64,000 nucleotides of DNA from Marinobacter sp. (GTDB lineage Bacteria > Pseudomonadota > Gammaproteobacteria > Pseudomonadales > Oleiphilaceae): contig JAIUMV010000011.1 in assembly GCA_022565395.1 (NCBI GenBank), positions 62,001 through 126,000 on the forward strand, in the 5' to 3' direction. Position numbers and translations under genes: made by a program. Below, piece after piece: positions 453-19,660 of the stretch. Numbering within the stretch: the first letter of the stretch is position 1; every line of letters begins with the position of its first letter. Under the pieces are notes generated by a model. It was given only the letters and a program-made list of their open reading frames with translations, searched no databases and was not told the origin of the DNA.

Positions 453-500
453 TGATCTGACATGCCCCGGCAATCCTGCGACTGCCGGGGCATCAGATCA
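453..500 (-). terminator. Long intercistronic hairpin between lipase and fadL
   Basis: Arms ATGCCCCGGCA (462-472) and TGCCGGGGCAT (483-493) enclose a 10-nt loop, and an outer TGATCTG/CAGATCA pair (453-459 and 494-500) extends the stem past a 2-nt bulge. It begins at the lipase stop codon. On the minus strand only a weak ATTTT run follows, so it may be a partial terminator or an RNA-stability element that sets fadL expression below lipase expression. Confidence 0.65.
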
Positions 501-2996: not shown

Positions 2997-3176
2997 GATA
3001 TGCTCCTTGCTTGTGCCGGACCTGGAAAGCCCGGCCTTATAGTTTGTTTTTAGATAGGGACGAGAGTAGTTGTTATGTAATTTTTCGTAATTGGCCCGAG
3101 GTGCACAGGTGTACGTCAAAAAGGCCTAAGAAGCGTAAAAAGTACTTTGTTTTTAATGTTTTGAGAGGTGCGTCAC

Positions 3177-4346: not shown

Positions 4347-4361
4347 CGGGTGGCAGCCCCC

Positions 4362-5123
4362 TCAGAGTAGTGCCAGCAACGCCAGCTCGCAGAACACCAC
4401 GCTGGCCCCCAGGGTGTCTCCGGTGTAGCCGCCCAGGCGGCGCATTAGCAAGCGCCCCCACAGCAAGCAGGTTAGTCCCACCGCGCCAGCTGCCAACAGC
4501 GTCAGGTAGGGTGCCCAGGGCCAGCAGGCCAGGGCAATGATCAGCACCAGGGCGTGTGCGACCAGCAAGCGGATACCCGAGAAGCCCTCCGCCACCGGTT
4601 TGGTTTTGCTCTGGTCGGGATCAGTGATATAAGGCAGCCGATACATCAGCCACAACGGCGCCAGCCGCGCGATGGCCGGCGCCACCAGCAGGGCCAGCCA
4701 GATCAGCTGTGTATCCAGCAACAGAGCGACTTTGAGGGCCAGGGCCATTACCAGCGCTGCGGTGCCATAGGTGCCGATACGGCTATCCTTCATGATGCGC
4801 AGCCGGTCCGCCACCGTCAGACCGCCGCCGATGCCATCGGCACTGTCCGCCAGGCCATCTTCGTGGAATGCCCCCGTCAGCCAGAGGTGAAAGGCCACGA
4901 CCGCCACCACCGCCGTTACCGGCGAAAAGGCCAACACCAGAACACTGTAGAGAGCTGCGTAAATCCCCCCCAGCAGCAAACCCACCAGCGGGAAATACAC
5001 ACTGCTTTGGTTCATCAGGGTCTGGGAGTAGTCAATCCTCACCAGCATGGGGATCCGGGTCAGAAACCCCAGTGCCAGCCAGAAGGCTTGCCATTCACGG
5101 CGTATGGGGTGGGTCGGGGTCAT
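4362..5123 (-). CDS. cobS: Adenosylcobinamide-GDP ribazoletransferase (CobS)
   Basis: Integral membrane enzyme of the last steps of cobalamin assembly: it joins alpha-ribazole to adenosylcobinamide-GDP. FLTRIPM near the start, FHEDGLADSADGIGGG (acidic metal-binding loop) and DSRIGTYG are diagnostic, and the rest is a run of hydrophobic helices as in all CobS proteins. The 253-residue start at ATG 5123 matches the family length; the open frame extends upstream but that part has no family similarity and overlaps a terminator. No other cob gene is nearby, so it is isolated from its pathway partners (CobU, CobT) in this window. Confidence 0.93.
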   Translation of the reverse strand: MTPTHPIRREWQAFWLALGFLTRIPMLVRIDYSQTLMNQSSVYFPLVGLLLGGIYAALYSVLVLAFSPVTAVVAVVAFHLWLTGAFHEDGLADSADGIGGGLTVADRLRIMKDSRIGTYGTAALVMALALKVALLLDTQLIWLALLVAPAIARLAPLWLMYRLPYITDPDQSKTKPVAEGFSGIRLLVAHALVLIIALACWPWAPYLTLLAAGAVGLTCLLWGRLLMRRLGGYTGDTLGASVVFCELALLALL

Positions 5124-5200
5124 AGTGTGCCTGCCTGGGGTTGTTGGCGGGCATTGTAGCTTATTCGTTGCCGGTGATGGTGCCTGCGGTGATGACCCAT

Positions 5201-5228
5201 AAAAAAGCCCGGCCATTGCTGGCCGGGC
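5201..5228 (-). terminator. Rho-independent terminator after the DUF1329 gene
   Basis: Perfect GCCCGGCC/GGCCGGGC stem (5207-5214, 5221-5228) with a 6-nt loop, followed on the minus strand by six T (5201-5206). It closes the leftward transcript of the exported-protein block and insulates cobS. Confidence 0.92.
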
Positions 5229-5265
5229 AAATGCCCCTGGCATGAGGCGGGAACTGAATTGATGT

Positions 5266-6627
5266 TTAGCGCACGCCGGCCCGACGCAGGGCGGCGGGGG
5301 TGAAGTCCTGGGAGCGACGAGTGATGCCGAAGGTATAGGGGGTGTCTTCCTCGTTGGTCAGGCCCATCACCAGGTAGCGGCCGGACAGCAGGTCATAGAG
5401 GGTTTCAAACGCGTAGGCCGGGATGTCCAGGTCATAAGACTGAATCATGTGAGCCTCAGCCACCCGCCACAGCTCGCCGCGGCCGTCGTAGTGATCGACG
5501 ATGGCGATTTGCCAGGTATCTTCGTCCACATAGAAATCACGCTGGGCATAGATATGGCGTTCCCCATCTTTCAGGGTGGCACGTACGTGCCAGACCCGGT
5601 GCAGCTCATAGCGGGTCAGTTCCTGGTTGATATGACCCGCTTTGATGATGTCGCTGTATTTCAGCTTGCGGTCCGCCAGGTCGTAGGCGTTGTAGGGAAT
5701 GTACATTTCCTTTTTGCCAATCAGCTCCCAGTTGTAGCGGTCCGGGGCGCCGTTGTAGAGGTCCAGGTTGTCGGAGGTGCGCTGGCCATCTGCGGCGGTG
5801 CCGGGGCCATCATAGGCTACTTGCGGCGCGCGACGGACCCGACGCTGGCCGGAGTTGAAAATCCACGCCCGACGTGCTTCCGCCACCTGATCGATGGTTT
5901 CGTGGACCAGCAGCACGTTACCCGCCAGCCGTGACGGCGAGGTGGTGGTCTGCTTGAAGTAGAACAGGACGTTTTCGTGGTCTTCCGGTTTGTAATCTTC
6001 CAGGAAGGTGGGGGTGACAATTTCTTCGGTGAATTTCACCGGGCTGAAGTTGCCATTAGGCTGCGGCGTAACCTGGGCGACGTTGCGGGCAATGGCGCCG
6101 CCCCGGTAACGGGTCAGATGGTTGAAAATCACTTCCACACCGCTCTGGGGGATGGGGAAGGGCACACCAATTTCGTAATTCACCAAGCCATTGCCACTGG
6201 GTTCCAGTGTGACCGTGGTTGCATTCTGTTTGGTCCGATCCATGATGTTCTGGGGGTAGACCGCTGTCCGGTGGGTGGGGTAGACCGGAATGAAGTAGCT
6301 GTCATAGCGCTGGATCATGGCCACCTGGCCTGGAGACAGGCGATGCTTGTGCTCATCCACATTGCTGCGGTCGATGCGGAACAGAGGCTGCTCATCCGGG
6401 AACGGATTAGTGTAGAAGTGGTTGCCCGGGTAGCTGGCGGGGACTTCCCGCAAACCACCGGTCCAGGCCGGGATTTCGTTGCCGTTACCGGCGCGTTCCG
6501 CACCAATGGGCGTGAGGCTGTCACCCAGTTTGGCGATCTCGCTGGCAGGCACAGCGGCCTGCAGGGGCGCTGCGGTCAGTGCGCAGGCCATCACGCCAGC
6601 GGCGATCAGGGTTTTGTTGAACTGCAT
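5266..6627 (-). CDS. DUF1329 family periplasmic/outer-membrane-associated protein
   Basis: 453 residues with a clean Sec signal peptide (MQFNKTLIAAG to LQA-A). The body matches the DUF1329 family: IGAERAGNG.EIPAWTGG at the start, then a beta-rich LolA/LolB-like lipid-binding region and YDLDIPAYAFETLYDLLSGRY near the end. Family function is not established. These proteins are nearly always encoded beside a DUF1302 protein, as here (34 bp downstream of it), and structurally resemble lipoprotein/lipid carriers, so a role in moving a hydrophobic substrate through the periplasm is a reasonable inference. Start is ATG 6627 with GGAG six bases upstream; a strong terminator follows. Confidence 0.88.
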   Translation of the reverse strand: MQFNKTLIAAGVMACALTAAPLQAAVPASEIAKLGDSLTPIGAERAGNGNEIPAWTGGLREVPASYPGNHFYTNPFPDEQPLFRIDRSNVDEHKHRLSPGQVAMIQRYDSYFIPVYPTHRTAVYPQNIMDRTKQNATTVTLEPSGNGLVNYEIGVPFPIPQSGVEVIFNHLTRYRGGAIARNVAQVTPQPNGNFSPVKFTEEIVTPTFLEDYKPEDHENVLFYFKQTTTSPSRLAGNVLLVHETIDQVAEARRAWIFNSGQRRVRRAPQVAYDGPGTAADGQRTSDNLDLYNGAPDRYNWELIGKKEMYIPYNAYDLADRKLKYSDIIKAGHINQELTRYELHRVWHVRATLKDGERHIYAQRDFYVDEDTWQIAIVDHYDGRGELWRVAEAHMIQSYDLDIPAYAFETLYDLLSGRYLVMGLTNEEDTPYTFGITRRSQDFTPAALRRAGVR

Positions 6628-6661
6628 GGTGGTCTCCTTATTATCAGATCAGCTGTTGTAG

Positions 6662-8563
6662 TTAGAAGGAATAAGAGATGCTGGCCGCCAGGAAGTCGCG
6701 GTCAGACAGCTCGTTAAAGGGTTTTCCGTCGAAGAAGTTGGTGTAACTGATGTCTGCACGCCAGGCGTTCTGGTAGGTGGCCTCTACTCCAATGGCAAAC
6801 GACTTGTTGCCTTCGTTGAAGTTGCCGCCAGGCTGCGGCGAATACCCCTTAACGTCATGGCTGAAAAGGATGCGAGGCATCAGGTTCATGCCAAACAGGG
6901 CGTTGGGGTAGTCCCAGGCAAATGCGGTGCGGTAACCCCAGGAAAAGGGTGTGACATAGCCATCGTTGCGGCAGTAGCTGGGATTTATATTGAGTCCCGG
7001 CTCACTGTCGGGACCTGCGGCACAGAAGTCGCCGGTAAAGTCATCACCGTCCAGTGGCACCGGGCCTACACCAAAGGTGCCGCTACGGCCGTACCGGGCT
7101 TCACTTTTGTCTGGCAGGTCATGTACATAGGTTGCGCCCACCTCACCCACGATAATGAAACGGGAAGCCCCCATGACCTGATCAATAAAGTGAATAAAGG
7201 TAGCCTGGGCCTGGGAGACCTTGTAACGGTCGTAACCTTCAATAATCTGGCCGGCGGCATTCAGGTCCGGGTTGGCATCCCGCAGGCGCTGCTCCAGTTT
7301 ACTGATGATCTCGCCGTTGGGGCCGCGCTGCTGCACGCCACCGTAGATCAGTTCAAAGGTGTTCCATTGCAACGGCAGATTGGGGCGGAAGCTGTACTCC
7401 GCGCCCAGGGAGGTGCCGGTGGGCAGGGTGGTGTTGAGGCTGATGCCGTAAAGCTCAATACCCTTGGGGTAATCAATAAAGTAGCTGGGGAACCGGGTGC
7501 TGGGCAGGTCCGGGTTGAAGTCAACATTATCAATGTTATTGCCATCTTCGGGGTTGTTCACCTTGCCGCTGATATAGGGCAACCGGCTGTGGTAACGCAC
7601 GTAATAGAAACCGAACTCCGAGTCCAGCGCGGAGGAGTAGTAACGCAGTGCTGCCCCGAACTGATCCCGGTCACCGGGCTCTCTATCACCGATGCGAGGT
7701 GCAAACAGCCCCTCTTCCAGGGCCTGGGAGTCGGGGATCTGGCCTGCCAGCAGCACGGGGCCGCAGCCATCGGAGGCCACGTCCGCGGTTGAGAAGAAGG
7801 TGCCGCAATCGTCCACCTTGAACTTTTCCCACTTGGTCTGCACATAGGCTTCAAGGGTGATGTCCGGCGTCAGGCCGATAGAGGTATAGAGCATTTCCAC
7901 CGGTAGCAGTACATCTTTTAACTCAGCGCCCGGCGTCCGGAAGGCGCGCACGTCCACCGGGTTGGTGGCATTGATGCCACCAAGAATGAAGGTGCTCTCG
8001 CCCCAGCTGATCACCTGGCGGCCATAGCGCACTGCTATGGGTTTGTCGGCAATGTACCAGTCCGAGAAGATGTAAGCGTCCAGCAGGTCAACACCCGCCT
8101 GATTGTCCCGCGCCTGGCGGTTCAGCTCACGGCGCTGGCCGACGGGATCTTCGGCGCGTTGGTTCTCCCGCAACTCATAATCGTAGTAGTAGGTTACCCG
8201 CCCCAGAGCGCCGAGTCGGGTCAGATAATCACTGTTCGGGCTATAGTCCAGGAACAGCTCAGACCGGCCACGAAAAATGGTGGAGTAGGGGCGTCCCTTT
8301 TTGAAGTTCAGGTTGCCGTCATCAAAGTTGTTGGACGAGGCCCCCGTGTTACTGAAGGCAAACTCGGGTCCCAGGTTGCCTTGGGAAATGAAATTTGGGT
8401 CCGGGTCCGTCATGCGAATGCCGATGCCCGCGGTCAGGGTCGTGTCAAAGGACGCGCTGACGGGACCTATGTTGAAGTCAATGGCGCTGACAGGTGCGCT
8501 CAGGATGGAGGCGACAGCAAGCGCCAGCGGTGCTTTCAGTGGGCGATAATTTTTTGTTGTCAT
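6662..8563 (-). CDS. DUF1302 family outer-membrane beta-barrel protein
   Basis: 633 residues from ATG 8563 (GGGAG 8 nt upstream; an in-frame TTG at 8578 is ignored). Signal peptide ending ...APVSA, then FDTTLTAGIGIRM, typical of the DUF1302 N-terminus, and repeated amphipathic strands such as YYYDYELR and VRYGRQVISWGES. The last residues are SISYSF: a terminal aromatic Phe is the usual BAM insertion signal, so an outer-membrane barrel is well supported. Function of the family is unproven; it travels with DUF1329 and often with hydrophobic-compound metabolism. Here both lie in a block with two giant lipase-type lipoproteins. Confidence 0.88.
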   Translation of the reverse strand: MTTKNYRPLKAPLALAVASILSAPVSAIDFNIGPVSASFDTTLTAGIGIRMTDPDPNFISQGNLGPEFAFSNTGASSNNFDDGNLNFKKGRPYSTIFRGRSELFLDYSPNSDYLTRLGALGRVTYYYDYELRENQRAEDPVGQRRELNRQARDNQAGVDLLDAYIFSDWYIADKPIAVRYGRQVISWGESTFILGGINATNPVDVRAFRTPGAELKDVLLPVEMLYTSIGLTPDITLEAYVQTKWEKFKVDDCGTFFSTADVASDGCGPVLLAGQIPDSQALEEGLFAPRIGDREPGDRDQFGAALRYYSSALDSEFGFYYVRYHSRLPYISGKVNNPEDGNNIDNVDFNPDLPSTRFPSYFIDYPKGIELYGISLNTTLPTGTSLGAEYSFRPNLPLQWNTFELIYGGVQQRGPNGEIISKLEQRLRDANPDLNAAGQIIEGYDRYKVSQAQATFIHFIDQVMGASRFIIVGEVGATYVHDLPDKSEARYGRSGTFGVGPVPLDGDDFTGDFCAAGPDSEPGLNINPSYCRNDGYVTPFSWGYRTAFAWDYPNALFGMNLMPRILFSHDVKGYSPQPGGNFNEGNKSFAIGVEATYQNAWRADISYTNFFDGKPFNELSDRDFLAASISYSF

Positions 8564-8591
8564 GAGAACGGCTCCCAAAAAGGTGCCTTGT

Positions 8592-8612
8592 CCCGGTCAC
8601 TCAGTGACCGGG
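8592..8612 (-). terminator. Hairpin between lipase-like gene and DUF1302 gene
   Basis: CCCGGTCACT/AGTGACCGGG around one central base gives a 10-bp stem in the 87-bp gap. On the minus strand a TTTTT run follows about 10 nt later, too far for a canonical terminator, so it may attenuate rather than stop read-through into the DUF1302 gene. Confidence 0.5.
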
Positions 8613-8650
8613 CAGGCTTGTTATTCTGTTGGTTGAGTGCAAGGTGCGGC

Positions 8651-11600
8651 TCAGCGACTGCCCCACAGGCTGTCCAGGGCGGCCTGGAACGGACTCAGAA
8701 CGATCTCCTCAAAGGTCTGTGCCGCGTCGCTGAAGGTGCCTGTCCAGTTCTCAAATCCCGCATTATTCTGGCTGACGGCGCAGGAGGCGCCGGCGGGGTC
8801 ACTGTCCTTCACCACATGGCAGCGGCGCACAGTGATGGTGCCGTCGGTATACAGCTCAAGCATTTGCTCCAGCATCTCGTTGAACACATCGGCGGAGCTG
8901 CCCGGGTCTAGGTCGGCCTGGCCGCCAGACACGGGGTTGCCGTGGGAGCCTTCCAAGTAACGGGTCAGGGTCGGCAAGCTGCGATTATTGTTCGGTGCAG
9001 GTGCTGCCACGCCCATCAGGTCTGCCAGGGGCTCGGTGCCCATCAGGGGTGCCGGCTTGCTGGCAATGACAAAACCGCTGTCCGGCAGGACTTTTTGCAG
9101 TGGGCCCATGTCATAGTCCTCGCCCAGTTTGCTCTGATGTACCTGGTTATCTGCTGCATTGGGTACAGTGCCGTCAGCAGCAGCGCCCCCCAGTTCAGGA
9201 TCAAAGGGTGGTGTACCAACGATGGCCGTCAGCAGGGTAGGAGTACCTTGATAGAAGCTGGCGTAGGCTGAGGGGTCTACCGAATCCAGCAGACTCTGGA
9301 GCACATTCAGATAGATGTTCAGCTCGGTACGACCCTGCGCGAGCAATCCGTCGGATGCAGCATTCAGAGTGGGCAGCAGCAAGGGCGCCAGTGCCTTGGA
9401 GTTTTCCAGAGTCCGGGTGAAGTGGCCGCCGGTGTTCAGGAAGGTTTGGCCAAGGATGGGGCGGAGCGCGGTGTTGCCTGCTGCTCTCGCCTGATTGTTG
9501 ACATGGGGGAAGGCCATGCCGCCCACGCCACTGAGGGAGTGGGACAGGAAATACACTCGGTTGGCGTTGAGGCGCAGTTGCTCACCGTTGTTACAGCCAC
9601 TGCAACTATTCAGTGCGGCTTCAATGGCCGGAATAGAAGCACTGATATTGAGCAGGTCTATGGCTGCCTGGCGCAGATTGCCAGTGGTGTTGGGGAAATT
9701 GGTGAAATTGAAATACAGGCTGCCGGAATCGGGTGTTTCAAACTCATCAGCAGGCAGCGCTGGGCCGCCAGGCAGACCGGCATAGCCAAAGTGCCGTTCC
9801 CGCGAGCCTTCGGAAGCGCCCGCCTGGGTTTCGATGGGGGTCAAACCAACCGCACCCTCATCAAAGATGCCGTGCAGCGGCAGATCCACCCCGATGGTGA
9901 CAAAGCAGTCAAAGCTGTCGTCGGCACCGCATAGCAGGCCTGCCGCAGTAGCTGCCGGCAGAATCACTGAGCGATCCTGGGTAGCCGCGTGCTGGTAGAT
10001 GATCACCGGCCAGCCTTCCGCAGGTACCGGAAATGGCTGGAGAACCTCAAGGTCGGGCAGCAGAGGCAAGGGGTTCTCAAGCGTAACTCGCAGTGGAAAG
10101 TCTGGGGTGGTTACCACCAGCGGCACGGTGACATCGCCTTTTTTCTCAGCAAACGGGAAGCGATAGGTGACCCGGTCCGTTTTTGCGTTGGCCAGTTCAG
10201 GGTCGGCACTGAAATCGGCGGCTTGCCAGTTTTCCAGCTGAATGGGCGAGCCATCGGTGCTCAGTGGATCAGGTATGCCCTGATAGTAGGGCAGGGTGAT
10301 CTCGCCCTGGAATACCTGAATATCCACGTCAATATTACCAACCACAGGTACGTTGGTGCTCTGACCCAGCGCGGGGTTTACATCTCTGCCCAGGGTACGG
10401 CTGAAGATGCGGGTGGTACGGGATTTCGGGGTGTCCAGCAGGGCCTCCGCCTGGCCGGCCAACTGGGCGGCCTGGTTGTCCAGTGCTGTAGCCAGCACGT
10501 CGCTGGCGGCTTCGGCAGCGGCGGCTTGTAACAGCAGTGCCGTATCCGGTGTGCCAGCATTAACCAGGTCGTTGTAGCGAACCAGCAGACCTTCGGCGTT
10601 TGCCTCTTCCAGCAACAGGGCCAGGTCAGGATCGAACAGGTCAATGCTCTGCTCGTAGAAGGTCAGCTCACCGGCAATCGTCAGCAGTTCATAGATGCGC
10701 TGGTTGATGGCCTGATCGTCGGCGCTGGCATTCTCGCTCAAGGGCTGGTTGGTCAGGTTGAATGCACCACTGATCAGCCTGCTGACAGCATCCTGTCGAG
10801 CCTGAATACGGGTTTGAGACCGGAAGTAAGTGACCGGCGCGGCGTTGGCCAACAGAATGTCGTCTATACCCGTGGTGGTGAAGGTGGTGGAGAACACCAC
10901 ATCGGCAAAGCCGGGTATGGCAGAGGCCTCATTCAGTGCCTCGGTTTTGAACTGGAAGTAACGGGCGGCCAGTTGGCGGGCTGGAACCATCACATCTCGG
11001 AAGGGTTGGAGGGCCACGTTGGAGATGGCTTTGCTGGGATCGGCAATGCTCTGGTACTGGGGCGCGCCAACCAGCTTTTCACCCTGTGCGGTGCGGATGC
11101 CGTTGGTCAGGGCGACAGCGTACTGGGTTTTGGCCTTGAGGGGCTTGATGGGCAGGATGCGAATAGCATTATCGACACCGCCATCAACACTGATCAGCTC
11201 GATACGAACCTGTTCCTGCTCCGCCATCAGTTCATCCAGTATGGCTTGGGCTGCGGTCGGGTCACTGTCCTTCAACCGTTGCGCAAGGCGATAGCGGTCC
11301 ATGCGGGAAATGCCGGCCACCTCCCCTTGGGCCCGGAACAGCGGGTCGGCCCCGGGATAGGCCAGGGGGATCAGCAGGATGTTCTGGTCAGGGTTGGGCA
11401 GTATCTCGCCATCCACGTCAATGAAATCGCGGGCATCCAGGCTCTCAGCGTCCAGACTGGCACTGATCTTGATATCAAACGGTGCCAGTACGGAATTGCC
11501 GTCCAGATAACCCAGGCCGGCGGTGACCGGGTTGTAGTCCGGCTGGGTGGGGTCGGTGAAGTTGCCGTTCAGCATGGTGCCGTCGTTGGCTTTGTTCAGA

Positions 11601-11812
11601 AAGAACAGCGCATCGCTGGGCAGCGGGAACTCAGAGTTCAATGGACGGAAAACGGGGTGTGGACCCTGCACAATACCGGATGAGCCAGAGGCGCCACCAA
11701 TCAGGTATTGCGGATTGCTGTTGTTGTCAGTGAAGCCGCCACTTTCAAGGCAGCCAGCCAAAGCAAAGCTGGTGATGGCAGCACTGAGGAGTGCCTTTTT
11801 GGGTGTGAGCAT
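8651..11812 (-). CDS. Giant lipase-like outer-membrane lipoprotein with altered nucleophile elbow
   Basis: 1053 residues from ATG 11812, preceded by AGGTGA; a GTG three codons upstream has no good ribosome site. Lipobox LAGC (Cys about 21). It shares the layout of VolA/Pla-1 lipases: an N-terminal lipase-associated domain (PLPSDALFF, VALTNGIRTAQG), a long Ala-rich helical insert (about 340-460), then an alpha/beta-hydrolase core with YQHAATQDRS, GVDLPLHGIF and the elbow FLSHSLSGVGG (Ser about 759). Here the usual GxSxG is SxSxS. A cysteine-rich CSGC loop precedes it and GSHGNP near the C-terminus may carry the His. It is paralogous to the 498-2996 gene but in a different operon. Lipid or polyester hydrolysis is inferred. 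Confidence 0.8.
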   Translation of the reverse strand: MLTPKKALLSAAITSFALAGCLESGGFTDNNSNPQYLIGGASGSSGIVQGPHPVFRPLNSEFPLPSDALFFLNKANDGTMLNGNFTDPTQPDYNPVTAGLGYLDGNSVLAPFDIKISASLDAESLDARDFIDVDGEILPNPDQNILLIPLAYPGADPLFRAQGEVAGISRMDRYRLAQRLKDSDPTAAQAILDELMAEQEQVRIELISVDGGVDNAIRILPIKPLKAKTQYAVALTNGIRTAQGEKLVGAPQYQSIADPSKAISNVALQPFRDVMVPARQLAARYFQFKTEALNEASAIPGFADVVFSTTFTTTGIDDILLANAAPVTYFRSQTRIQARQDAVSRLISGAFNLTNQPLSENASADDQAINQRIYELLTIAGELTFYEQSIDLFDPDLALLLEEANAEGLLVRYNDLVNAGTPDTALLLQAAAAEAASDVLATALDNQAAQLAGQAEALLDTPKSRTTRIFSRTLGRDVNPALGQSTNVPVVGNIDVDIQVFQGEITLPYYQGIPDPLSTDGSPIQLENWQAADFSADPELANAKTDRVTYRFPFAEKKGDVTVPLVVTTPDFPLRVTLENPLPLLPDLEVLQPFPVPAEGWPVIIYQHAATQDRSVILPAATAAGLLCGADDSFDCFVTIGVDLPLHGIFDEGAVGLTPIETQAGASEGSRERHFGYAGLPGGPALPADEFETPDSGSLYFNFTNFPNTTGNLRQAAIDLLNISASIPAIEAALNSCSGCNNGEQLRLNANRVYFLSHSLSGVGGMAFPHVNNQARAAGNTALRPILGQTFLNTGGHFTRTLENSKALAPLLLPTLNAASDGLLAQGRTELNIYLNVLQSLLDSVDPSAYASFYQGTPTLLTAIVGTPPFDPELGGAAADGTVPNAADNQVHQSKLGEDYDMGPLQKVLPDSGFVIASKPAPLMGTEPLADLMGVAAPAPNNNRSLPTLTRYLEGSHGNPVSGGQADLDPGSSADVFNEMLEQMLELYTDGTITVRRCHVVKDSDPAGASCAVSQNNAGFENWTGTFSDAAQTFEEIVLSPFQAALDSLWGSR

Positions 11813-11934
11813 GTCAATCACCTATTATTGTTGTGTCTGCTTTCGATTGGATCTTGCTGCTGGATAAAACGGACAGATGTTCGGAAAGGTTCCCAAAAAA
11901 GACACAGATTGTTACAGGGGGAGAAGGGCGAACA

Positions 11935-11957
11935 GGGGCGACGAATCATCGCCGCCC
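11935..11957 (-). terminator. Possible terminator hairpin after the beta-helix/cytochrome gene
   Basis: GGGGCG...CGCCCC-type imperfect hairpin just past the stop of the 11966-15019 gene on the minus strand. No T-run follows, so termination is uncertain; the 153-bp gap to the next start may contain its own promoter. Confidence 0.4.
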
Positions 11958-11965
11958 CTTGCTAT

Positions 11966-14900
11966 TCAGGGCAGGATGGGCAGGGAGCCAAACCAGTTGC
12001 GGATGCCGTCGAACCAGCTGTCTGGATTGCCGGGCAGCGCGCCGCCCCCCGCGTTGCCACAGGCATCGCCATTGGCATAGTCACTGGTGACCACATGGGT
12101 GATCCAGTGTTTAAGCAATGCGACGGCCTCATCATGGTTCACGCTCTTGGCGATGGGCGGCATCTTCTTCTGCGGATCATGAGCGTTGTCCATTCGGCAG
12201 GTGAGGATGGATGCGTTGGCGTCTCCGGGCACGACCACATGGGCGAGGCCGCAAGACCCATTGCCGGTGGCAGTGGGACGTTTACAGATGCCGTAGCTGG
12301 CGTTCACGTCCCGGAAGTGATCCAGATAATAGCCCGTGTTGGAAGCGGCCCCCTTGTCGTTATGGCAATGCTGGCAGTTAACTTCGAGATAGGCGCGGAT
12401 ACGGGACTCAACATCAGCCGCTGAATGGGGTGTTGCACCGCCGTCTCCCGGCAGGTTCCAGTGTGGGAGCCGTTCTACGTTAGTGGCCACGCCGCGGCCG
12501 TCAATCTGCAGGCTGGGTGCGTTTGCCAGCAGCCCCATGTCGATCCAGTACTGTAGCTGGTTGACGCGGGGATAACCGGCCTGGCCACGGGTGCCCATGT
12601 GACCGGACTCAGGTGCATAGGCACGATTGAGGTTGCGCGGTTTGGGGCCAATCGGTGCGCTGCCGGATTCCAGGTCATCGTTGGCGTGGCAAGTGAGACA
12701 CTGATTGGCATTGGGGATGCTGTAATGAGAGGTGCTACCCACCAATAGCTCCCCGGAGTCGGCATCGCGATAGTGCCAGCTGGCAGCCGTGCTGCCGCCA
12801 CTCATGGCCAGGTGGGCCACCTTGTTACCCTGCGCATCGGTTTCCCAGATATAGGGCAAGCCATCCCAGAAGGCTTTGCCGCTCTGACTGGTGCGCTTGA
12901 TAAGCAGGCGGGTTTCGATAACGTCCTCGGTGCCAGCCTGTTCATCGGTAAAGGCAAAGCTTTTGGCGATAACGGTCCCGTCCGGGAAGATGATGCTGCC
13001 ATTAACATTGCTGCCTTGCTGGCCGTCCTGCCAGATCGCCTGTTCGCCGGGCGGTATGAAAGCGACCCGGTATTTGGTGGCATAGTCAGAGAACAGTTTG
13101 CTGTTCATGACGAACGGCACGCCGCCTTCATTTGGTTGGCTGCGAGGGTCTTGCGGGTCGGCAAAAAGATTGTACTGGTCCAGGCGCGGGCAATTGACGG
13201 CCAGCGCAGCGCGATTGACCTGTCCCGGCGGTGTTGCGACGCTACACAGGCGTTTTACCTGCTCCGCCGAGGGGGCCGGATCAAACTGACCGCTGCGCTC
13301 AAAGGGTGGGATAACGACCCTGGGCAGGGGTGCCAGCGTGCGCCCGAACCGGGCCTGGCAATCGTGGTCCTGCAGACGGGTGTCGGCAGGAAAGTTTACC
13401 AGACCCGTGATGACAGTCCGCAGGCCCTCGGGGCTGAGCAGGCTGGTATCCTGTTCCAGCGCCGCAATCAGCAACTCCAGACCGCTGGTGCCATGGAAGT
13501 TTAGATAGGGTTGCCCGTCCTCAAACACATTGCTGTGAATGCAAGAGCCCCACTCGGGCTGTTTGCGCGCACCCTGAGCGTCGAACTTATAGGCATTGTA
13601 GTGGCAACTGGGGTTAGGGTGGTTGTTGTCGAAATCTGGTTTGCCACTGGGCAGCGCTGGCACCGGGTTGCCCTGGCTATCCAGCGGGTAGGGGCAGTCC
13701 TCGTGGAGGTCGTCCAACAGACCGTCCCAGACAATGTGGGCACCCTGGCCGGGTCGCTGCAGGTTCTTAAAACCGATCAGTGTGGGCAGTATTGTCTCGA
13801 TGTCGCCGTTCAGTACCCGATCAATGTCAGGCGGCGGCAGGCTGTACCCGGAGTTTCGGAAGATGTTGTTGTGGATGTGCAGTCCTTCCGTGTAGGGGTC
13901 CAGCTTGCGGTCGGCGGTGCGCCCCTTGCCATCGATGAGCTCATAGCTGGTGTAGATAACAGCCGCGGTACTGTGGTCCTCAAACAGGTTGTTATAGATC
14001 TCGATATTGTCGTAGCCGAGGGTAATGAAGCCAGTCCCCCTTGGTACTGCGCCGACAATGCCGCTGGGTGCAAAATTGTAGGTGTTGTTGTTGCGTGCCA
14101 CGTTGTCGAGCATGACGGAGGAATCACCATACTGGGTCAGGTTTTCCAGATCGTAGATCAGGAAACCACCGGTATTACACTCAGCCAGATTGCGGTCGTA
14201 CTCGCCCCCCTGTACGTTCTCAATTTCAAAGCCCATGACGTTGTAGGCGGCGCGACTGGTGCGAATAATCGCGTTGTTGGTTTGCCCGACATAGATACCC
14301 GCGTCGGAGGCACCAACCGATTCGCTGTCTTCGACGAGAATATGCGCTGATTCGACAGGGTATATCCCGTAGCGACCGCTGGCTGGGTTAGGCGCGTAAT
14401 CCGGGCTGGTATCCCAGGGGTTCATGGGTGGGGCGGTACAGGGTACGTGTAGCCGGTTCTGGTAGTTGGCCTCGGTAATGGGCTCGCCAAGGCCAGACCA
14501 CAGTGCCCGGACTCTGCGCAAGGTGCCCCATTTAACGCCCTTGAGTTTGAACGCATCGCCCGGTGAATCCAGTATGGTCAGGTCTTCCACGGTAATGCCG
14601 CGCACGTTCAGGGCTTCAAGTCCGGTGACGTTTTCGCTGTTGCGGAATGAAAGTACCGTTTCGTCTTTGCCGCAGCCATGGATGCGGACATCCTCTGTCG
14701 CCTGTATCAACAGACCTTGGTCAATGTTGAAGAAGCCACAGCCAAAGGCAAGGGTATCGCCGGGGCGCAGTTGGATCATGGCGGCGACCATATCAGCCGT
14801 GGCCTGGGGGCCTTGTTGGACATGGAAGGTACGGCCATGGACGGTGCCAGGCGGTGTAATGGGTGGCTGGGGATTTGTGGTATCGACGGGAGATTGCTGG

Positions 14901-15019
14901 CCATCACCAGCTTCCTGGCCGGCCTGCCGTGAGGTGTTGCCGGAGTCGCTGCAGCCGGTAAGGGCAAGTGTTAGGGCCAGCCCTGTGCTGTATAAAAGCG
15001 CGTTTATTCTCGGGTTCAT
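11966..15019 (-). CDS. Fusion lipoprotein: parallel beta-helix domain plus di-heme cytochrome c domain
   Basis: 1017 residues, start ATG 15019 with CAGGAG upstream, lipobox LTGC (Cys 23). Residues about 60-500 form a right-handed parallel beta-helix (repeats such as VRGITVEDLTILDSPGDAF, AHILVEDSESVGASDAGIYVG, NIEIYNNLFED) with many Cys. Residues about 560-1010 form a second domain with two haem c sites, CLTCH (774-778) and CQHCH (882-886), and a possible Met ligand in KKMPP. These are the two families described in TIGRFAM models TIGR03805 and TIGR03806, normally adjacent genes of unknown function; here they are one polypeptide. Electron transfer coupled to polysaccharide or polymer binding at the cell surface is only a guess. 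Confidence 0.85.
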   Translation of the reverse strand: MNPRINALLYSTGLALTLALTGCSDSGNTSRQAGQEAGDGQQSPVDTTNPQPPITPPGTVHGRTFHVQQGPQATADMVAAMIQLRPGDTLAFGCGFFNIDQGLLIQATEDVRIHGCGKDETVLSFRNSENVTGLEALNVRGITVEDLTILDSPGDAFKLKGVKWGTLRRVRALWSGLGEPITEANYQNRLHVPCTAPPMNPWDTSPDYAPNPASGRYGIYPVESAHILVEDSESVGASDAGIYVGQTNNAIIRTSRAAYNVMGFEIENVQGGEYDRNLAECNTGGFLIYDLENLTQYGDSSVMLDNVARNNNTYNFAPSGIVGAVPRGTGFITLGYDNIEIYNNLFEDHSTAAVIYTSYELIDGKGRTADRKLDPYTEGLHIHNNIFRNSGYSLPPPDIDRVLNGDIETILPTLIGFKNLQRPGQGAHIVWDGLLDDLHEDCPYPLDSQGNPVPALPSGKPDFDNNHPNPSCHYNAYKFDAQGARKQPEWGSCIHSNVFEDGQPYLNFHGTSGLELLIAALEQDTSLLSPEGLRTVITGLVNFPADTRLQDHDCQARFGRTLAPLPRVVIPPFERSGQFDPAPSAEQVKRLCSVATPPGQVNRAALAVNCPRLDQYNLFADPQDPRSQPNEGGVPFVMNSKLFSDYATKYRVAFIPPGEQAIWQDGQQGSNVNGSIIFPDGTVIAKSFAFTDEQAGTEDVIETRLLIKRTSQSGKAFWDGLPYIWETDAQGNKVAHLAMSGGSTAASWHYRDADSGELLVGSTSHYSIPNANQCLTCHANDDLESGSAPIGPKPRNLNRAYAPESGHMGTRGQAGYPRVNQLQYWIDMGLLANAPSLQIDGRGVATNVERLPHWNLPGDGGATPHSAADVESRIRAYLEVNCQHCHNDKGAASNTGYYLDHFRDVNASYGICKRPTATGNGSCGLAHVVVPGDANASILTCRMDNAHDPQKKMPPIAKSVNHDEAVALLKHWITHVVTSDYANGDACGNAGGGALPGNPDSWFDGIRNWFGSLPILP

Positions 15020-15059
15020 TGTCTGTCACTCCTGTTGTTTTGGTTATGGAGCGTAAGGA

Positions 15060-15085
15060 GGACCTGGCAAGACGTACCCAGGTCC
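15060..15085 (-). terminator. Hairpin between M19-like gene and beta-helix/cytochrome gene
   Basis: GGACCTGG/CCAGGTCC stem (60-67 and 78-85 of 15000) with a 10-nt loop in the 78-bp gap. No T-run on the minus strand, so processing or attenuation is as likely as termination. Confidence 0.4.
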
Positions 15086-15097
15086 GTTCGTCGTTGT

Positions 15098-17593
15098 TCA
15101 GCGCATCGCCGCTTCAATGCGCTCCCACATACGCAGGTAGGCTTCGGCCGAGGTGAACAGCTGGTTCACCGCATCCTCAACCTGCGCTTTGGGGGCATTG
15201 CTGTGGAGCACCATGTCGGCAATCTGGTCGGCGTACAGACCGTAGTGGGCCACGCCACGACCGTCATACAGGCCGAACTCGCGGTCCCCCGTGCGTTGCT
15301 TGCCAAACTGCACCCGTCCGTCGATGGAGGTGAAGGGGTAGAGGCGTGCGTCATCCTCGGCAGTGCCGCTGTTACCGGCCAGGTTGGCAATGCCGTTAAC
15401 ATCGGAGGCAAAGCCGGCACCGCCGAAGGGGCCTACTTTGTAGTCTGCCGGACGTGGGCGGTTACCATCCCGGGTCAACTCACGAACCCAGCCGTCGCGG
15501 GTGCCCCCGAAAGAGGCGGTAACGCCACCCTGAGCGGCAATGCGGTCCCGCAGGGCTTCGGTGCCGCCCCAGCCACCGTGGCTGTTGATCACCGGATAGC
15601 CGTGGGGTTTGGTGATGTCGAGAATACGAGCCGCGGCTTTGCGGCTGATATGGTCCGTCTCGATCATGATGCCCCGTCGCATCAGCTCCTGAATCAGGAA
15701 ATCGCCCAGGTCAGTAAGGCCACGGCGGTTACAGAGGTGGTCTGTGCCTCTGCGTGGGTCCAGTGCCGCCAGCTCTTCCGGCGTCTCAGGGAAGCGGTCA
15801 CCGACATAATCCAGCTGAAACAGCATCTGGTCGATCAGGCCGAGGGGTTGCAGGCTGGCGTTTTGATCGGGTTCCGAGCCGGTATATTCGCTACCCTCCG
15901 GGCATTCCTCAAACTCCACCGGATGGCCGGTGGCCAGCAGGTTGCCGCCATAGAGCACGGCGCCAATACCGACGCCGCTGGACAGATCTGGCAGATGACC
16001 GCCAAAGGCATTGTCAAATTTGTGTACCGGGAAAATGTTGCGCACGCCAAGGCGATAGAGGTGGTCCAGGCGCTCAACGATCTCTTCCCGTGTGCACTGC
16101 GCCACGTCCTGGAATTCGCTGCAGCGCATCAGCCGGGACATCTCAATACCCAGAATCACCGCCAGCTTGCCCTCACCGATGACCTCTCGCGCTTCTGCCG
16201 GGCTGGTGACTATGCGGAACCAGCCAGCACCGGGGCCGCCATGCTGTGCGTCGATATAGTCCTGCATCTCATACATGCGACGTATCTGCAGGTCGATGGC
16301 TTCAATAGGGTCACAATCGTTCTGCTTCTGAGGATTAATCCGGCAGAGAATTTCGTTGTGGACCAGATGGTTCACCAGAATCTTCATGCCCGCGAGGTGA
16401 GTACGTTCCAGCCAGCGGTAATAGCTCTGGTGGTGCATCAGCTCATTGTTTTTGGGCCAGTCATTAAAGGTGGGCCAGCCCTGGGTGTCATGGGCACCGC
16501 CGGCCGTCACCCAGTTGACAAAACCGGTGGCGCCCCAGGGGCCGTGATTGGCGGAGCAGTCTTTCAGCGCGTGGGTGATGCCAAAGCGGTGGAAGGGAGC
16601 GCCGTAATTGACGCGGCCACCAATGAATTCATAGGCAGAGATGTGAGAATGGGTATCCACGAACCCGAACACCGCCTGCTCATCGATACCCGCAATGCCC
16701 TGAAAACGCTCAACTTCATGCAGATAGATGGCTGGGCCGCGTTCATCCATAACGGTGGCATTCAGTTCCGCCTCCGGGTACTGGGCACAGTCTTCTGCGG
16801 GGGTGAGAGTGAACTGACTATGGCGGCCTGCCTCAGCGGGGCCAACAAGGGCCAGGCCCTCATGGGTTGCTGCCAGTAGCTGGCTGGTTACCCGCGACTG
16901 CAACTGAAAGCGGTCATCCCCGGCCGGGTTCAGTTTCCAGACGGCCAGATCATTGGGGCTGAAACTCATGCCCAGTTGCGGGTAAACAACCGTGGCGCTG
17001 ACGCGGTTGCCCAGCAGGCCAATGGTTTCGCCCGCGGAACGCAGCAGGTTACCTAGCGGCAGTATGGGGTCGAGCACCAGGTTTACGGTGTCCCCTGCAC
17101 CTGAGACCAGGTAGCCCGCTTCGCCAATAAAGTTACCCAGTTCGTCCAGCAAGTCCCCGGCAGGGTCTGTAATACCCAGTAGGTTCATGCGTCCGATCTC
17201 CCCTGGGCTACGTTGGAAATCAGACATCAGCAGATACGCACCCAGCTCAGTGGGGCGCAGGTAAAAGGCCGCTGCCTGTGCAGCGCTGGCTGTCAGGTCA
17301 TAGCTGTTGCTGCCCGGGTTGGCGCGTACCCACTGCTCGCCTGTACCCAGGCGGTAGCACCCATTGGCAAAGCTGTAGCGGTTGAGCGGCAGGTTCTCAT
17401 CGGTATTGTCGGTAGGCGGGCCGGGTCGTGGATGGTCTGGCTTGCCGGGCGATTGGTCCCGATTGCCCAGCTGTTGGCCGCTATTGGCACTGCTGTCGGA
17501 GTCATTGCTGCCAAAGCAGCCAGCAAGCAGAAAAAAACAGCAGAGCATGGCCACCAGGCGAATGCCGGTAGCGTGAAGGGATAATGTTCTCAT
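15098..17593 (-). CDS. Lipoprotein with C-terminal membrane-dipeptidase (M19)/amidohydrolase-like domain
   Basis: 831 residues from ATG 17593 (GGGAG upstream), lipobox LLAGC (Cys 26) and a Ser/Asp/Pro-rich linker. The N-terminal 280 residues resemble a beta-trefoil or galactose-binding-like region but I cannot name it. From residue about 311 a metallohydrolase begins: FVDTHSH (D313, H315, H317 as likely metal ligands), then MKILVNHLVHNE, a glutamate in VILGIEMSR, and ETDHISRKAA...VINSHGGWGG, the His pattern of the M19/amidohydrolase barrel. It is the first gene of the leftward block and lies divergent from the START-domain gene across an FNR-type box. Substrate unknown; peptidase activity should not be assumed. 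Confidence 0.72.
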   Translation of the reverse strand: MRTLSLHATGIRLVAMLCCFFLLAGCFGSNDSDSSANSGQQLGNRDQSPGKPDHPRPGPPTDNTDENLPLNRYSFANGCYRLGTGEQWVRANPGSNSYDLTASAAQAAAFYLRPTELGAYLLMSDFQRSPGEIGRMNLLGITDPAGDLLDELGNFIGEAGYLVSGAGDTVNLVLDPILPLGNLLRSAGETIGLLGNRVSATVVYPQLGMSFSPNDLAVWKLNPAGDDRFQLQSRVTSQLLAATHEGLALVGPAEAGRHSQFTLTPAEDCAQYPEAELNATVMDERGPAIYLHEVERFQGIAGIDEQAVFGFVDTHSHISAYEFIGGRVNYGAPFHRFGITHALKDCSANHGPWGATGFVNWVTAGGAHDTQGWPTFNDWPKNNELMHHQSYYRWLERTHLAGMKILVNHLVHNEILCRINPQKQNDCDPIEAIDLQIRRMYEMQDYIDAQHGGPGAGWFRIVTSPAEAREVIGEGKLAVILGIEMSRLMRCSEFQDVAQCTREEIVERLDHLYRLGVRNIFPVHKFDNAFGGHLPDLSSGVGIGAVLYGGNLLATGHPVEFEECPEGSEYTGSEPDQNASLQPLGLIDQMLFQLDYVGDRFPETPEELAALDPRRGTDHLCNRRGLTDLGDFLIQELMRRGIMIETDHISRKAAARILDITKPHGYPVINSHGGWGGTEALRDRIAAQGGVTASFGGTRDGWVRELTRDGNRPRPADYKVGPFGGAGFASDVNGIANLAGNSGTAEDDARLYPFTSIDGRVQFGKQRTGDREFGLYDGRGVAHYGLYADQIADMVLHSNAPKAQVEDAVNQLFTSAEAYLRMWERIEAAMR

Positions 17594-17752
17594 GTGACTC
17601 CCACCTTGTTGTCATTGTTGGTGTGTGGAACCAGGGACTTTTTTACTTCCAGGAAAAACACGACAAACTGTGACAAAAGGTTTCATGAAGTTACAAAATA
17701 AGTGTAAGAAACCGCACCTGGGTTAAGGATTTTAAGCGTCAATGCGTTTTAA

Positions 17753-17766
17753 TTGATTGAAATCAA
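17753..17766. promoter_or_regulatory. Perfect FNR/ANR box in the divergent region 17594-17890
   Basis: TTGAT-TGAA-ATCAA, an exact match to the FNR/ANR consensus, in the 297-bp gap between the M19-like (-) and START (+) genes. For the rightward gene a class-II position (-41.5) puts the start of transcription near 17801, with a weak -10 (CATTCT, 17792-17797). Leftward, TAAAAT (17729-17734) is a better -10 but about 4 bp too close to the box. Nothing else is evident in this gap. Confidence 0.75.
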
Positions 17767-17890
17767 TAGAAGATTTTAAGATGCTGGTGACCATTCTGGC
17801 TTCGGGGTATGGCAAGCTGGCCAATGTCGAGTTGGCGGCGGTATGGGAGGGTGACGCCTTCAGAGCCACAACAATTAAAGAGACCTCACC

Positions 17891-18631
17891 ATGAAAAGGA
17901 TGATCACTCCGTTACTTTGCCTGTGCCTGCTGTTGCCTGCGGTAGCCTTCGCTGAATCTGGCTGGGACCAGATCCGCAACCCCTCTGACCGTAGTGAAGT
18001 GCGTACCTTTGTGCGCAGCGTTGAGGGCAGCTCCATCAAGCAGTTCAAAGGCATAGTGGAAGTACCCCAGAGCATGCTGACGGCCATTGCCGTAATCAGC
18101 GACGTGCATAACTTTGATAACTGGGTTTTCAACTGTCAGGGCACGGAAATACGCCGCGAGGAGTGGGGCACAGACTACCTGCGCATCAAGATCAACGGTA
18201 TCTGGCCCGCATCGGACCGGGATGTGGTGATACGCAGTAGCTACCATCAGGATCCGGACACCCGGGCTATTACCGTGCGCTCCCAGGCCGCCGAGGGTTT
18301 GCTGGAGCCCCAGCGCGGCTTTGTGCGGATTGAGGCCCTGGATAACTTCTTTGTGGTGGAACCCCTGGCGGATGGCTGGACCCGCATTACCTTTCAGACC
18401 TTTGTTCATCCAGGTGGCTCGTTACCGGCCTGGATTGCCAACTTTGTCGCTACCCGTGCGCCGGTGCAAACCCTGGAAGGGCTCAGACAACAAATGGCCC
18501 GGGACGAGTATCAGTTGAGCTCGCCCGAGCAGCTGCCATCGCCCTTGCCGGGAAGCCCTCACCTTGAGTTTCCTGAAGGCACGCTGATGTCTGGTGAGCG
18601 AGTCGGAGATGACACGGCGGATGCGGCCTGA
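17891..18631 (+). CDS. Secreted START-domain lipid-binding protein
   Basis: 246 residues, signal peptide MKRMITPLLC...AFA. The body is a START/SRPBCC fold: SIKQFKGIVEVPQ, SDVHNFDNWVFNC, the conserved ASDRDVVIRSSYHQD strand-turn and a C-terminal helix with FVATRAPVQTLEGLRQQM. Periplasmic START proteins in proteobacteria bind hydrophobic ligands and are thought to shuttle them. It is divergent from the lipase/DUF1302/DUF1329 block, sharing the FNR-type box, which suggests it serves the same hydrophobic substrate. The ribosome site is weak (AAAGAG). Confidence 0.87.
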   Translation: MKRMITPLLCLCLLLPAVAFAESGWDQIRNPSDRSEVRTFVRSVEGSSIKQFKGIVEVPQSMLTAIAVISDVHNFDNWVFNCQGTEIRREEWGTDYLRIKINGIWPASDRDVVIRSSYHQDPDTRAITVRSQAAEGLLEPQRGFVRIEALDNFFVVEPLADGWTRITFQTFVHPGGSLPAWIANFVATRAPVQTLEGLRQQMARDEYQLSSPEQLPSPLPGSPHLEFPEGTLMSGERVGDDTADAA

Positions 18632-18788
18632 GCATGAGCGCTCGCTTGGCCGGATGTGTAAAGTAGATTCTGAAGCACCCGGTCTGGTGTCAGCTTTTTT
18701 ATCACACATTTGTACATAAAAACTTCAGCCGTTATTTCTTTATAGTTAACTTGTTGTCTGGAAAGGCCAAATGGTTATCTTTTTGGGC

Positions 18789-18804
18789 TGGCACTGTTTT
18801 TGCT
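18789..18804 (+). promoter_or_regulatory. Sigma-54 (-24/-12) promoter of the PEP-CTERM gene
   Basis: TGGCAC-N5-TTGCT: the invariant GG (18790-18791) and GC (18802-18803) are exactly 10 nt apart. Predicted transcription start is about 18815 and the ATG is at 18845. Upstream, GTGTAAA near 18657 and TTTATCACAC near 18699 form a loose inverted pair that could bind an enhancer protein. Sigma-54 control of PEP-CTERM genes with the PrsK/PrsR system is known in other proteobacteria. Confidence 0.85.
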
Positions 18805-18844
18805 GGTCTTGGGCGCAACCCCTTACAACATGGATGAAATAACG

Positions 18845-19660
18845 ATGAATAAGGCAGTAAGAATGTCCGCAATGGCGGTCACCCTGGCAGGCGTATTTGG
18901 CGCTGGTCAGGTGATGGCGGCACCGATCTTTGACGATGGCTTGCCTGCGGATTGGAGCTGTACCGGCAACTGTGGCGCTTCTGGCCCTGACGGTGTTGTC
19001 ACTCAGGCGCCTATTGGCGGAAGTCAGTATGGCTGGGTGTCCACCAGTGGTGGTGTTTATGGTACGGCGTTGCCAGGCATTGGCGGTTCCGGTTCGCCGC
19101 AAAACGGCTCCAAACTGGTGTCCAACTTTTTTACAGTGGATGCTGCCACCGAGCTGGAGTTTGCGTTTAACTACGTGACCTCTGATGGCGCGGGCTATGC
19201 TGACTATGCCTGGGCGCGTCTGCTGGACCAGGATATGAATCAGGTCGCCCTGCTGTTCACTGCCCGTACCACACCTGGCGGTGATACTGTGCCTGGCTTT
19301 GCCATGCCAGACCCGGAAGCGACCCTGAACCCGGAGTCTACGCCGATTATTGGTGGCGCACCGGTGTGGTCCCCGCTGGGAGGCAGCTCCGGTTCATGCT
19401 GGAACGCCAATGGCTGTGGTTACACCGGCTGGATTCTTTCCAGTTATGAGATAGTCCAGGCTGGTACTTACGCGCTTGAGTTTGGTGTCGTTAACTGGAA
19501 CGACACGAGCTACCAGAGCGGTCTGGCCTTTGATGGCATTACCGTGGGTGGCCAGGCCATTACCCAGCCTAACCCGGTGCCTGTGCCTGAGCCTGGTACC
19601 CTGGCATTGCTGGGCCTGGGTCTGCTGGCATTGGGTGGTCGTCGTCGCATGATGAAGTGA
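18845..19660 (+). CDS. PEP-CTERM sorting-domain exported protein
   Basis: 271 residues. Start chosen at ATG 18845, directly before the signal peptide (MNKAVRMSAMAVTLAG to VMA-API) and downstream of the sigma-54 transcription start; upstream in-frame TTG and ATG codons would lie in or before the promoter. The C-terminus VPVPEPGTLALLGLGLLALG followed by GRRRMMK is the full tripartite PEP-CTERM signal: PEP motif, membrane helix and basic tail, cleaved by an exosortase (EpsH-type) not seen in this window. The body is beta-rich with paired Cys (SCTGNCG, SCWNANGC) and resembles secreted jelly-roll proteins of biofilm or extracellular matrix. Ligand unknown. Confidence 0.9.
   Translation: MNKAVRMSAMAVTLAGVFGAGQVMAAPIFDDGLPADWSCTGNCGASGPDGVVTQAPIGGSQYGWVSTSGGVYGTALPGIGGSGSPQNGSKLVSNFFTVDAATELEFAFNYVTSDGAGYADYAWARLLDQDMNQVALLFTARTTPGGDTVPGFAMPDPEATLNPESTPIIGGAPVWSPLGGSSGSCWNANGCGYTGWILSSYEIVQAGTYALEFGVVNWNDTSYQSGLAFDGITVGGQAITQPNPVPVPEPGTLALLGLGLLALGGRRRMMK

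Follow-up and report, generated by a model that had tools for sequence, protein, structure and literature searches.

Five leftward genes with exported products, at positions 5266-17593 of a 64,000-nucleotide stretch of a Marinobacter genome (hereafter the window; positions 62001-126000 of contig 11 in a genome of 3.89 Mb and 49 contigs), make up two modules. Module A comprises a VolA/Pla-1-like lipase lipoprotein, a DUF1302 outer-membrane barrel and a DUF1329 protein, and module B an M19-type metallohydrolase lipoprotein and a lipoprotein in which a beta-helix domain is fused to a diheme cytochrome. We propose, with a probability of about one in two, that module A couples a surface lipase to the outer half of an Ame-type conduit for hydrophobic compounds, module B being an accessory in the Marinobacter family. 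The features of the region are as follows.

5207-5228, minus strand: intrinsic terminator-like hairpin ending the five-gene run (9 pairs, 8 of them GC, then TTTTTT)
5266-6627, minus strand: module A, DUF1329 protein with a signal-like N-terminus, LolA-like and probably a periplasmic carrier (PF07044, 516 bits; LolA_like, 32.8 bits)
6662-8578, minus strand: module A, DUF1302 outer-membrane barrel, the ATG start at 8563 being likelier (PF06980, 561 bits)
8651-11821, minus strand: module A, VolA/Pla-1-like lipase lipoprotein, the ATG start at 11812 being likelier (TIGR03502, 142 bits; LAGC lipobox)
11966-15019, minus strand: module B, beta-helix and diheme cytochrome fusion lipoprotein (TIGR03805, TIGR03806; LTGC lipobox; two CxxCH)
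15098-17593, minus strand: module B, M19-type metallohydrolase lipoprotein (PF01244, 41 bits; LAGC lipobox)
17594-17890, no strand: divergent intergenic region of 297 bp, the presumed site of the promoters for the five genes and for the START gene
17891-18631, plus strand: secreted-looking START-domain protein, judged to lie outside the system (PF01852, 35.7 bits, cut-off 22)

Profile matches, lipoboxes and a terminator scan recovered all six genes where the initial annotation had placed them, five of them leftward and exported, together with the hairpin. From the start of the run to its end the order is M19, fusion, lipase, DUF1302 and DUF1329, with 78, 144, 72 and 34 bp between successive longest reading frames. 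The hairpin sits between the DUF1329 and CobS genes, the other six minus-strand matches of the terminator scan being intragenic; terminator-like sites were overall not commoner than in shuffles (15 versus 12.5, standard deviation 4.1). A consensus scan returned no minus-strand promoter-like site in 4300-19000. Judged from the DNA alone, the five leftward genes plausibly constitute one operon.

By gene order across relatives, module A is a conserved block. Our search covered 97 genomes: that of the window, 60 from its family and 36, one for each family, from its order. In 9 of the 60 same-family genomes (G009, G013, G038, G042, G047, G052, G058, G059 and G060) the lipase has a close orthologue (at least 46% identity), and in all nine the lipase gene was followed downstream by DUF1302 and then DUF1329 in the same order and on the same strand; contig ends truncate the orthologue in G013 and G038. 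When an eight-sequence lipase alignment was run against named genomes, among which Marinobacter and Halospina (family Marinobacteraceae) were the closest relatives found, DUF1302 and DUF1329 lay downstream of the lipase in 31 of 36 loci, the remaining five being two contigs of less than 4 kb (L094, L116) and three remote homologues (23-32%; L121, L123, L124). As the named-genome loci overlap the sampled genomes (L105 is G148 and L111 is G110, for example), the two counts are not independent. Among the named species, M. algicola has module A (L092) and M. shengliensis all five genes (L105). A CobS gene, at 4362-5243 in the window, also follows module A downstream at a distance of a few kb in L106, L112, L119, L135 and L137, and the site is thus probably orthologous.

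The initial annotation had regarded confinement of the neighborhood to close relatives as fatal to its proposal. Adjacency of lipase and DUF1302 recurs in other families, similar lipases being found beside a DUF1302 barrel in about ten of them. At the order level, a VolA-like match was present in 5 of the 36 genomes (G066, G078, G083, G084, G091), four of which have DUF1302, and in all four the two genes adjoin. In G078 and G084 the lipase gene points away from a complete DUF1302-DUF1329-YCF48-MMPL cassette, and G091 shows the same divergent layout with DUF1302-YCF48-MMPL. In G066 the lipase gene lies directly upstream of DUF1302-DUF1329 (L078, 10647-13976), at a locus whose flanks (thiolase, MalT-type regulator) match those of a second DUF1302-DUF1329 pair in the genome of the window; this second pair, on contig C6, is 59% and 70% identical to the first, has a thiolase and a MalT/LuxR-type regulator as neighbors, and has no lipase.

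Class-wide, a credible VolA-like gene (best piece of at least 95 bits) was retained in 24 of 185 genomes besides that of the window; 29 had matched, and G212, G242, G249, G279 and G350, each with one short piece below 30 bits, were dropped. Strong DUF1302 matches (above 200 bits, a threshold chosen after viewing the table) occurred in 9 of the 24, and the distance from lipase to DUF1302 was at most 5 kb in seven of these nine, as compared to about 0.12 chance adjacencies expected under uniform random placement, which ignores contig ends and kinship. Lipase, DUF1302, DUF1329, YCF48 and MMPL follow one another on one strand in G253, G290 and G323, with lipase-DUF1302 gaps of about 0.1, 0.9 and 4.1 kb, and G375 displays lipase-DUF1302-DUF1329 as far as its contig end, its lipase scoring above the TIGR03502 cut-off. 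The DUF1302 gene next to the lipase of G235 is a contig-end fragment (131 bits), strong DUF1302 matches being located on other contigs. The two exceptions to the 5-kb spacing are G336, with by far the highest VolA-like score (868 bits), and G259, whose lipase and cassette occupy separate contigs. As a rough contrast, G067 was the only other genome noticed in the tables of the 97 to carry a haem-pair gene within a few kb of DUF1302; there (L056, 8804-13385), split beta-helix and diheme genes are directly followed by a DUF1302 gene.

Module B is distributed differently. Among the 97 genomes, only those of the family showed the close M19-fusion pair; G082, from another family, has an orthologue of the fusion protein (55%) and, on another contig, a distant M19 relative. 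At the genus level, M19 alone (above 1000 bits) stood for module B, and the lipase was called at E below 1e-100; 39 genomes matched in the M19 search, of which seven more distant (below 400 bits) were dropped. Among 124 Marinobacter genomes, 32 have M19, 43 the lipase, 25 both, 7 M19 only, 18 the lipase only and 74 neither (odds ratio 14.7, Fisher p 5e-9, kinship uncorrected). On this distribution, we rejected the six-gene unit of the initial annotation in favor of two modules: what stands of the set it had proposed is the lipase/DUF1302/DUF1329 unit and the lipase-DUF1302 pairing across families.

Where both markers occur, M19 and the lipase are contiguous in 5 of the 25 genomes (G110, G116, G148, G152, G163), 26-45 kb apart in eight, 73-87 kb apart in two, more than 800 kb apart in three and on separate contigs in seven; they are thus at most 90 kb apart in 15 of the 18 genomes carrying both on one contig. 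The gene order in the contiguous five is lipase-DUF1302-DUF1329-M19-fusion, as opposed to the M19-fusion-lipase-DUF1302-DUF1329 of the window. G148, G152 and G163 have an intact fusion gene, G110 only fragments of it (L128, 4175-5572), which may reflect decay or draft errors; no fusion gene was found in the 20 kb examined in G116. Quick trees were built from 35 lipase and 13 M19 rows after removal of identical sequences, that of the lipase having long branches that meet. The contiguous five form a single M19 clade, and the window is placed elsewhere in both trees. The five-gene neighborhood is therefore not unique to the window, since a second lineage also has the M19-fusion pair joined to module A, albeit in another order; it is not one conserved unit either. 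The simplest reading is that modules A and B were joined twice, separately, although an old proximity followed by rearrangement, with which the 15 genomes at 90 kb or less would agree, may also account for the pattern.

That module A is a unit to which module B is merely adjacent, through chance or lineage co-location, is possible but clearly short of even odds. The seven genomes with the markers on separate contigs, the three with them beyond 800 kb and the ten at 26-87 kb all agree with mere adjacency, as does the restriction of contiguity to one M19 clade. Set against it are the different orders in which the window and that clade, from separate parts of both trees, join the modules, and a co-occurrence of M19 and lipase far above independence (again uncorrected for kinship).

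The individual proteins of module B match their families to varying degrees. In peptidase family M19 the metal ligands are HxD, E, H, H and D. The M19 protein of the window scored 41.1 bits against PF01244 (cut-off 26), over a match limited to 51 residues (623-673); its candidate ligands H315, H317, E484, H648, H672 and D731 are invariant, in three aligned sequences only, and H315-S-H317 stands where HxD is expected. The fusion protein exceeded the cut-off of the TIGR03805 beta-helix family (233 versus 141.5 bits) and fell below that of TIGR03806, the SO2930 diheme cytochrome family (263.9 versus 313.3 bits), while covering positions 1-313 of 314; its CxxCH haem sites are at residues 774 and 882. 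Like the TIGR03805/TIGR03806 pair of NCBIfam, it has both domains, an export signal and two CxxCH motifs; unlike that pair, the window has the two fused in a single chain, as do some relatives, beside an M19 lipoprotein. Just upstream of split TIGR03805/TIGR03806 genes, a regulator family (AraC-type helix-turn-helix in the two members scanned) was found in 7 of 20 loci (L048-L050, L053-L056).

VolA of Vibrio cholerae is a lipoprotein lipase of the same broad family as the lipase of the window, and COG657 is an intracellular-type esterase family. The window lipase departs from VolA in falling under the TIGR03502 cut-off, in its SHSLS nucleophile and in standing with DUF1302 and DUF1329. The literature searched, to which subscription papers were largely external, making this a weak negative, yielded no description of a VolA-like lipase with a DUF1302/DUF1329 cassette. 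The nearest printed case is that of the predicted AphR operons of Burkholderia sp. 383, in which, according to the accessible part of the source, a COG657 esterase/lipase gene lies in an operon adjacent to DUF1302, PF07044, COG1033 and COG4447 genes under shared predicted AphR control; the esterase is COG657 and not VolA/Pla-1, and the setting is aromatic metabolism (PMC6449761). Like the window, AmeABCD of Castellaniella defragrans has DUF1302 outer-membrane and DUF1329 periplasmic proteins side by side and deals with hydrophobic substrates, and insertion in ameB lowered growth on monoterpenes; the portion of text available describes no lipase (PMC6394551), and the run in the window lacks YCF48 and MMPL but has the M19 and beta-helix/diheme genes. 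Contig C9 of the same genome carries DUF1329-YCF48-MMPL, so that the inner-membrane half of the cassette is available in trans.

A comparable division of genes is found in Pseudomonas putida, where growth on the ester Tween 20 requires DUF1302 and DUF1329 proteins along with a periplasmic protein and an efflux-type transporter. There, too, a transport system has been proposed, with co-folding hinting at contacts (PMC10866462, as excerpted). As in the window, the DUF1302/DUF1329 genes PP_0765/PP_0766 have partners encoded elsewhere, PP_2018/PP_2019, to which they are tied by phenotype; unlike the window, the description, in the same excerpt, includes no VolA-like lipase (PMC10866462). DUF1302 and DUF1329 have further been tied to growth on phenanthrene, as cited in PMC13101534.

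These growth phenotypes, on Tween 20, monoterpenes and phenanthrene, lead us to favor inward transport. The recurrence of the lipase beside DUF1302/DUF1329 and the thiolase neighbors of some loci make ester lipids or fatty products the likeliest substrate. An outward route, by which the cassette would export or clear hydrophobic compounds (solvent tolerance, surface or vesicle lipids) and the lipase would process exported lipid or repair the outer leaflet, accords with the proposal that the cassette copes with toxic aromatics (PMC6449761, partial text) and with the tie of a DUF1329 gene to nanopods (PMC13101534, likewise). Such a route is difficult to reconcile with genes essential on an ester in P. 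putida, with the growth defect of the ameB insertion (both from the excerpts cited above), and with the thiolase neighbors at C6 and in G066, G253 and G259, which point to catabolism; we hold it to be doubtful, bordering on unlikely.

The properties of the lipase and barrel were next compared with known folds. The LAGC lipobox of the lipase occupies residues 21-24, its G and C being invariant in the eight-sequence alignment, as are Ser762 and His960; within the SHSLS motif, an alignment of 23 sequences shows no variation at the H, the nucleophile S or the last S. Its AlphaFold model is weak (predicted local distance difference test [pLDDT] 56.8, predicted template modeling score [pTM] 0.52) and, as for the barrel, the general fold alone was used (pLDDT 56-57). 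Alpha/beta-hydrolase esterases match residues 471-1004 of this model with Z up to 10.6; Ser759 (762 in the longer reading) follows a strand at 748-757 and His957 one at 948-953, a predicted placement that fits a nucleophile and a catalytic histidine, as expected. The low-confidence model of the DUF1302 protein (pLDDT 56.1, pTM 0.60) has about 18 barrel strands, and its best PDB matches are large porin-like barrels (Z about 16-19), among them maltoporin (18.7), OccK2 (18.6) and AlgE (17.1); no FadL chain was among the 50 matches listed, which excludes nothing. Sequence searches of solved structures gave no match at the thresholds used for the M19, lipase, fusion and DUF1329 proteins. Surface phospholipid turnover would make the lipase a VolA-type (lyso)phospholipase, with the barrel and carrier bringing released fatty acids or lipids back inward. 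This reading changes the substrate of our preferred explanation and not its mechanism, and we find it unlikely. TIGR03502 is named VolA/Pla-1 family phospholipase, and the fold matches include Lp-PLA2 chains (Z about 8.4); the score of the lipase, however, is well below the cut-off of that family, and many esterases give matches at least as good.

A second VolA/Pla-1-like lipase lipoprotein, a distant paralogue, is encoded at 498-3119 of the window on the minus strand (TIGR03502, 224 bits; GHSVG nucleophile), outside the range that the initial annotation described. It was not adopted as a member of the run because PatB, CobS and the hairpin intervene.

Several findings weigh against the coupling of a surface lipase to an Ame-type conduit. 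The lipase reached 142.1 bits against TIGR03502, for a cut-off of 383.9, and its nucleophile motif (residues 758-764) is SHSLS and not GxSxG, most of the distant relatives examined having GHS(L/F/V)G. Strong DUF1302 is missing from 15 of the 24 genomes of the class-wide set with a VolA-like gene, four having weaker matches only (27-101 bits) and 11 none, and the lipase-DUF1302 pairs of G222 and G309 had no DUF1329, YCF48 or MMPL detected within 20 kb. DUF1302 was likewise absent, in the stretches examined, beside VolA-like paralogues of the family on contig C9 of the window's own genome (L088) and in G041 and G051 (L084, L085). M19 is missing from 18 of the 43 lipase-bearing Marinobacter genomes, and AmeD is described, in the accessible portion of the source, as an efflux pump (PMC6394551).

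The START protein, which the initial annotation had included in the system, does not belong to it. The gene is real and divergent from M19, 297 bp away, but the triad and pair loci examined yielded no START match. Its nearest relatives (42-55%) are in G047, 82 kb from module A; in G013, on a separate contig of a fragmented assembly; and in G045, which has no close lipase or M19 orthologue. We excluded it because it is unlinked to the module loci in relatives. The START gene is followed, at 18800-19660 on the plus strand, by a gene for a PEP-CTERM protein of family NF038132 (291 bits).

In the mechanism that we propose for a lipase coupled to an Ame-type conduit, the outer membrane would anchor the VolA-like lipoprotein, which probably faces outward and would cut an ester lipid. 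The resulting fatty acid or other hydrophobic compound would be captured by or pass through the DUF1302 barrel, to which the lipase may be physically coupled, and would be taken over in the periplasm by the LolA-like DUF1329 carrier. It would then meet the YCF48/MMPL (HAE3-type RND) inner-membrane half, encoded here on contig 9 and, in some families, beside the lipase. The Marinobacter family would have enlisted module B as an accessory for this task, in which it perhaps opens amide or lactone bonds and takes electrons; we infer, as the initial annotation did, a route that would hydrolyse, oxidise and carry. A complete five-part machine of lipase, DUF1302, DUF1329, YCF48 and HAE3 RND that digests ester lipids outside and moves the products inward, with a bond-opening, electron-drawing metallohydrolase and diheme cytochrome added in the Marinobacter family, is a bolder proposition that we consider improbable as a whole; if true, its RND part would serve uptake rather than efflux.

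Proteins of the DUF1302 and DUF1329 families occur widely and are needed on several hydrophobic substrates, and their function and direction are still unsettled. Their recurrent pairing with a lipase in separate families supplies a class of substrates that can be tested, that of esters and fatty products, and a test of direction. The grouping of lipase, barrel and carrier suggests a little-noticed machine for consuming fats or esters, and a route other than FadL coupling extracellular lipid digestion to uptake, which bears on the degradation of marine oil, wax and polyesters.
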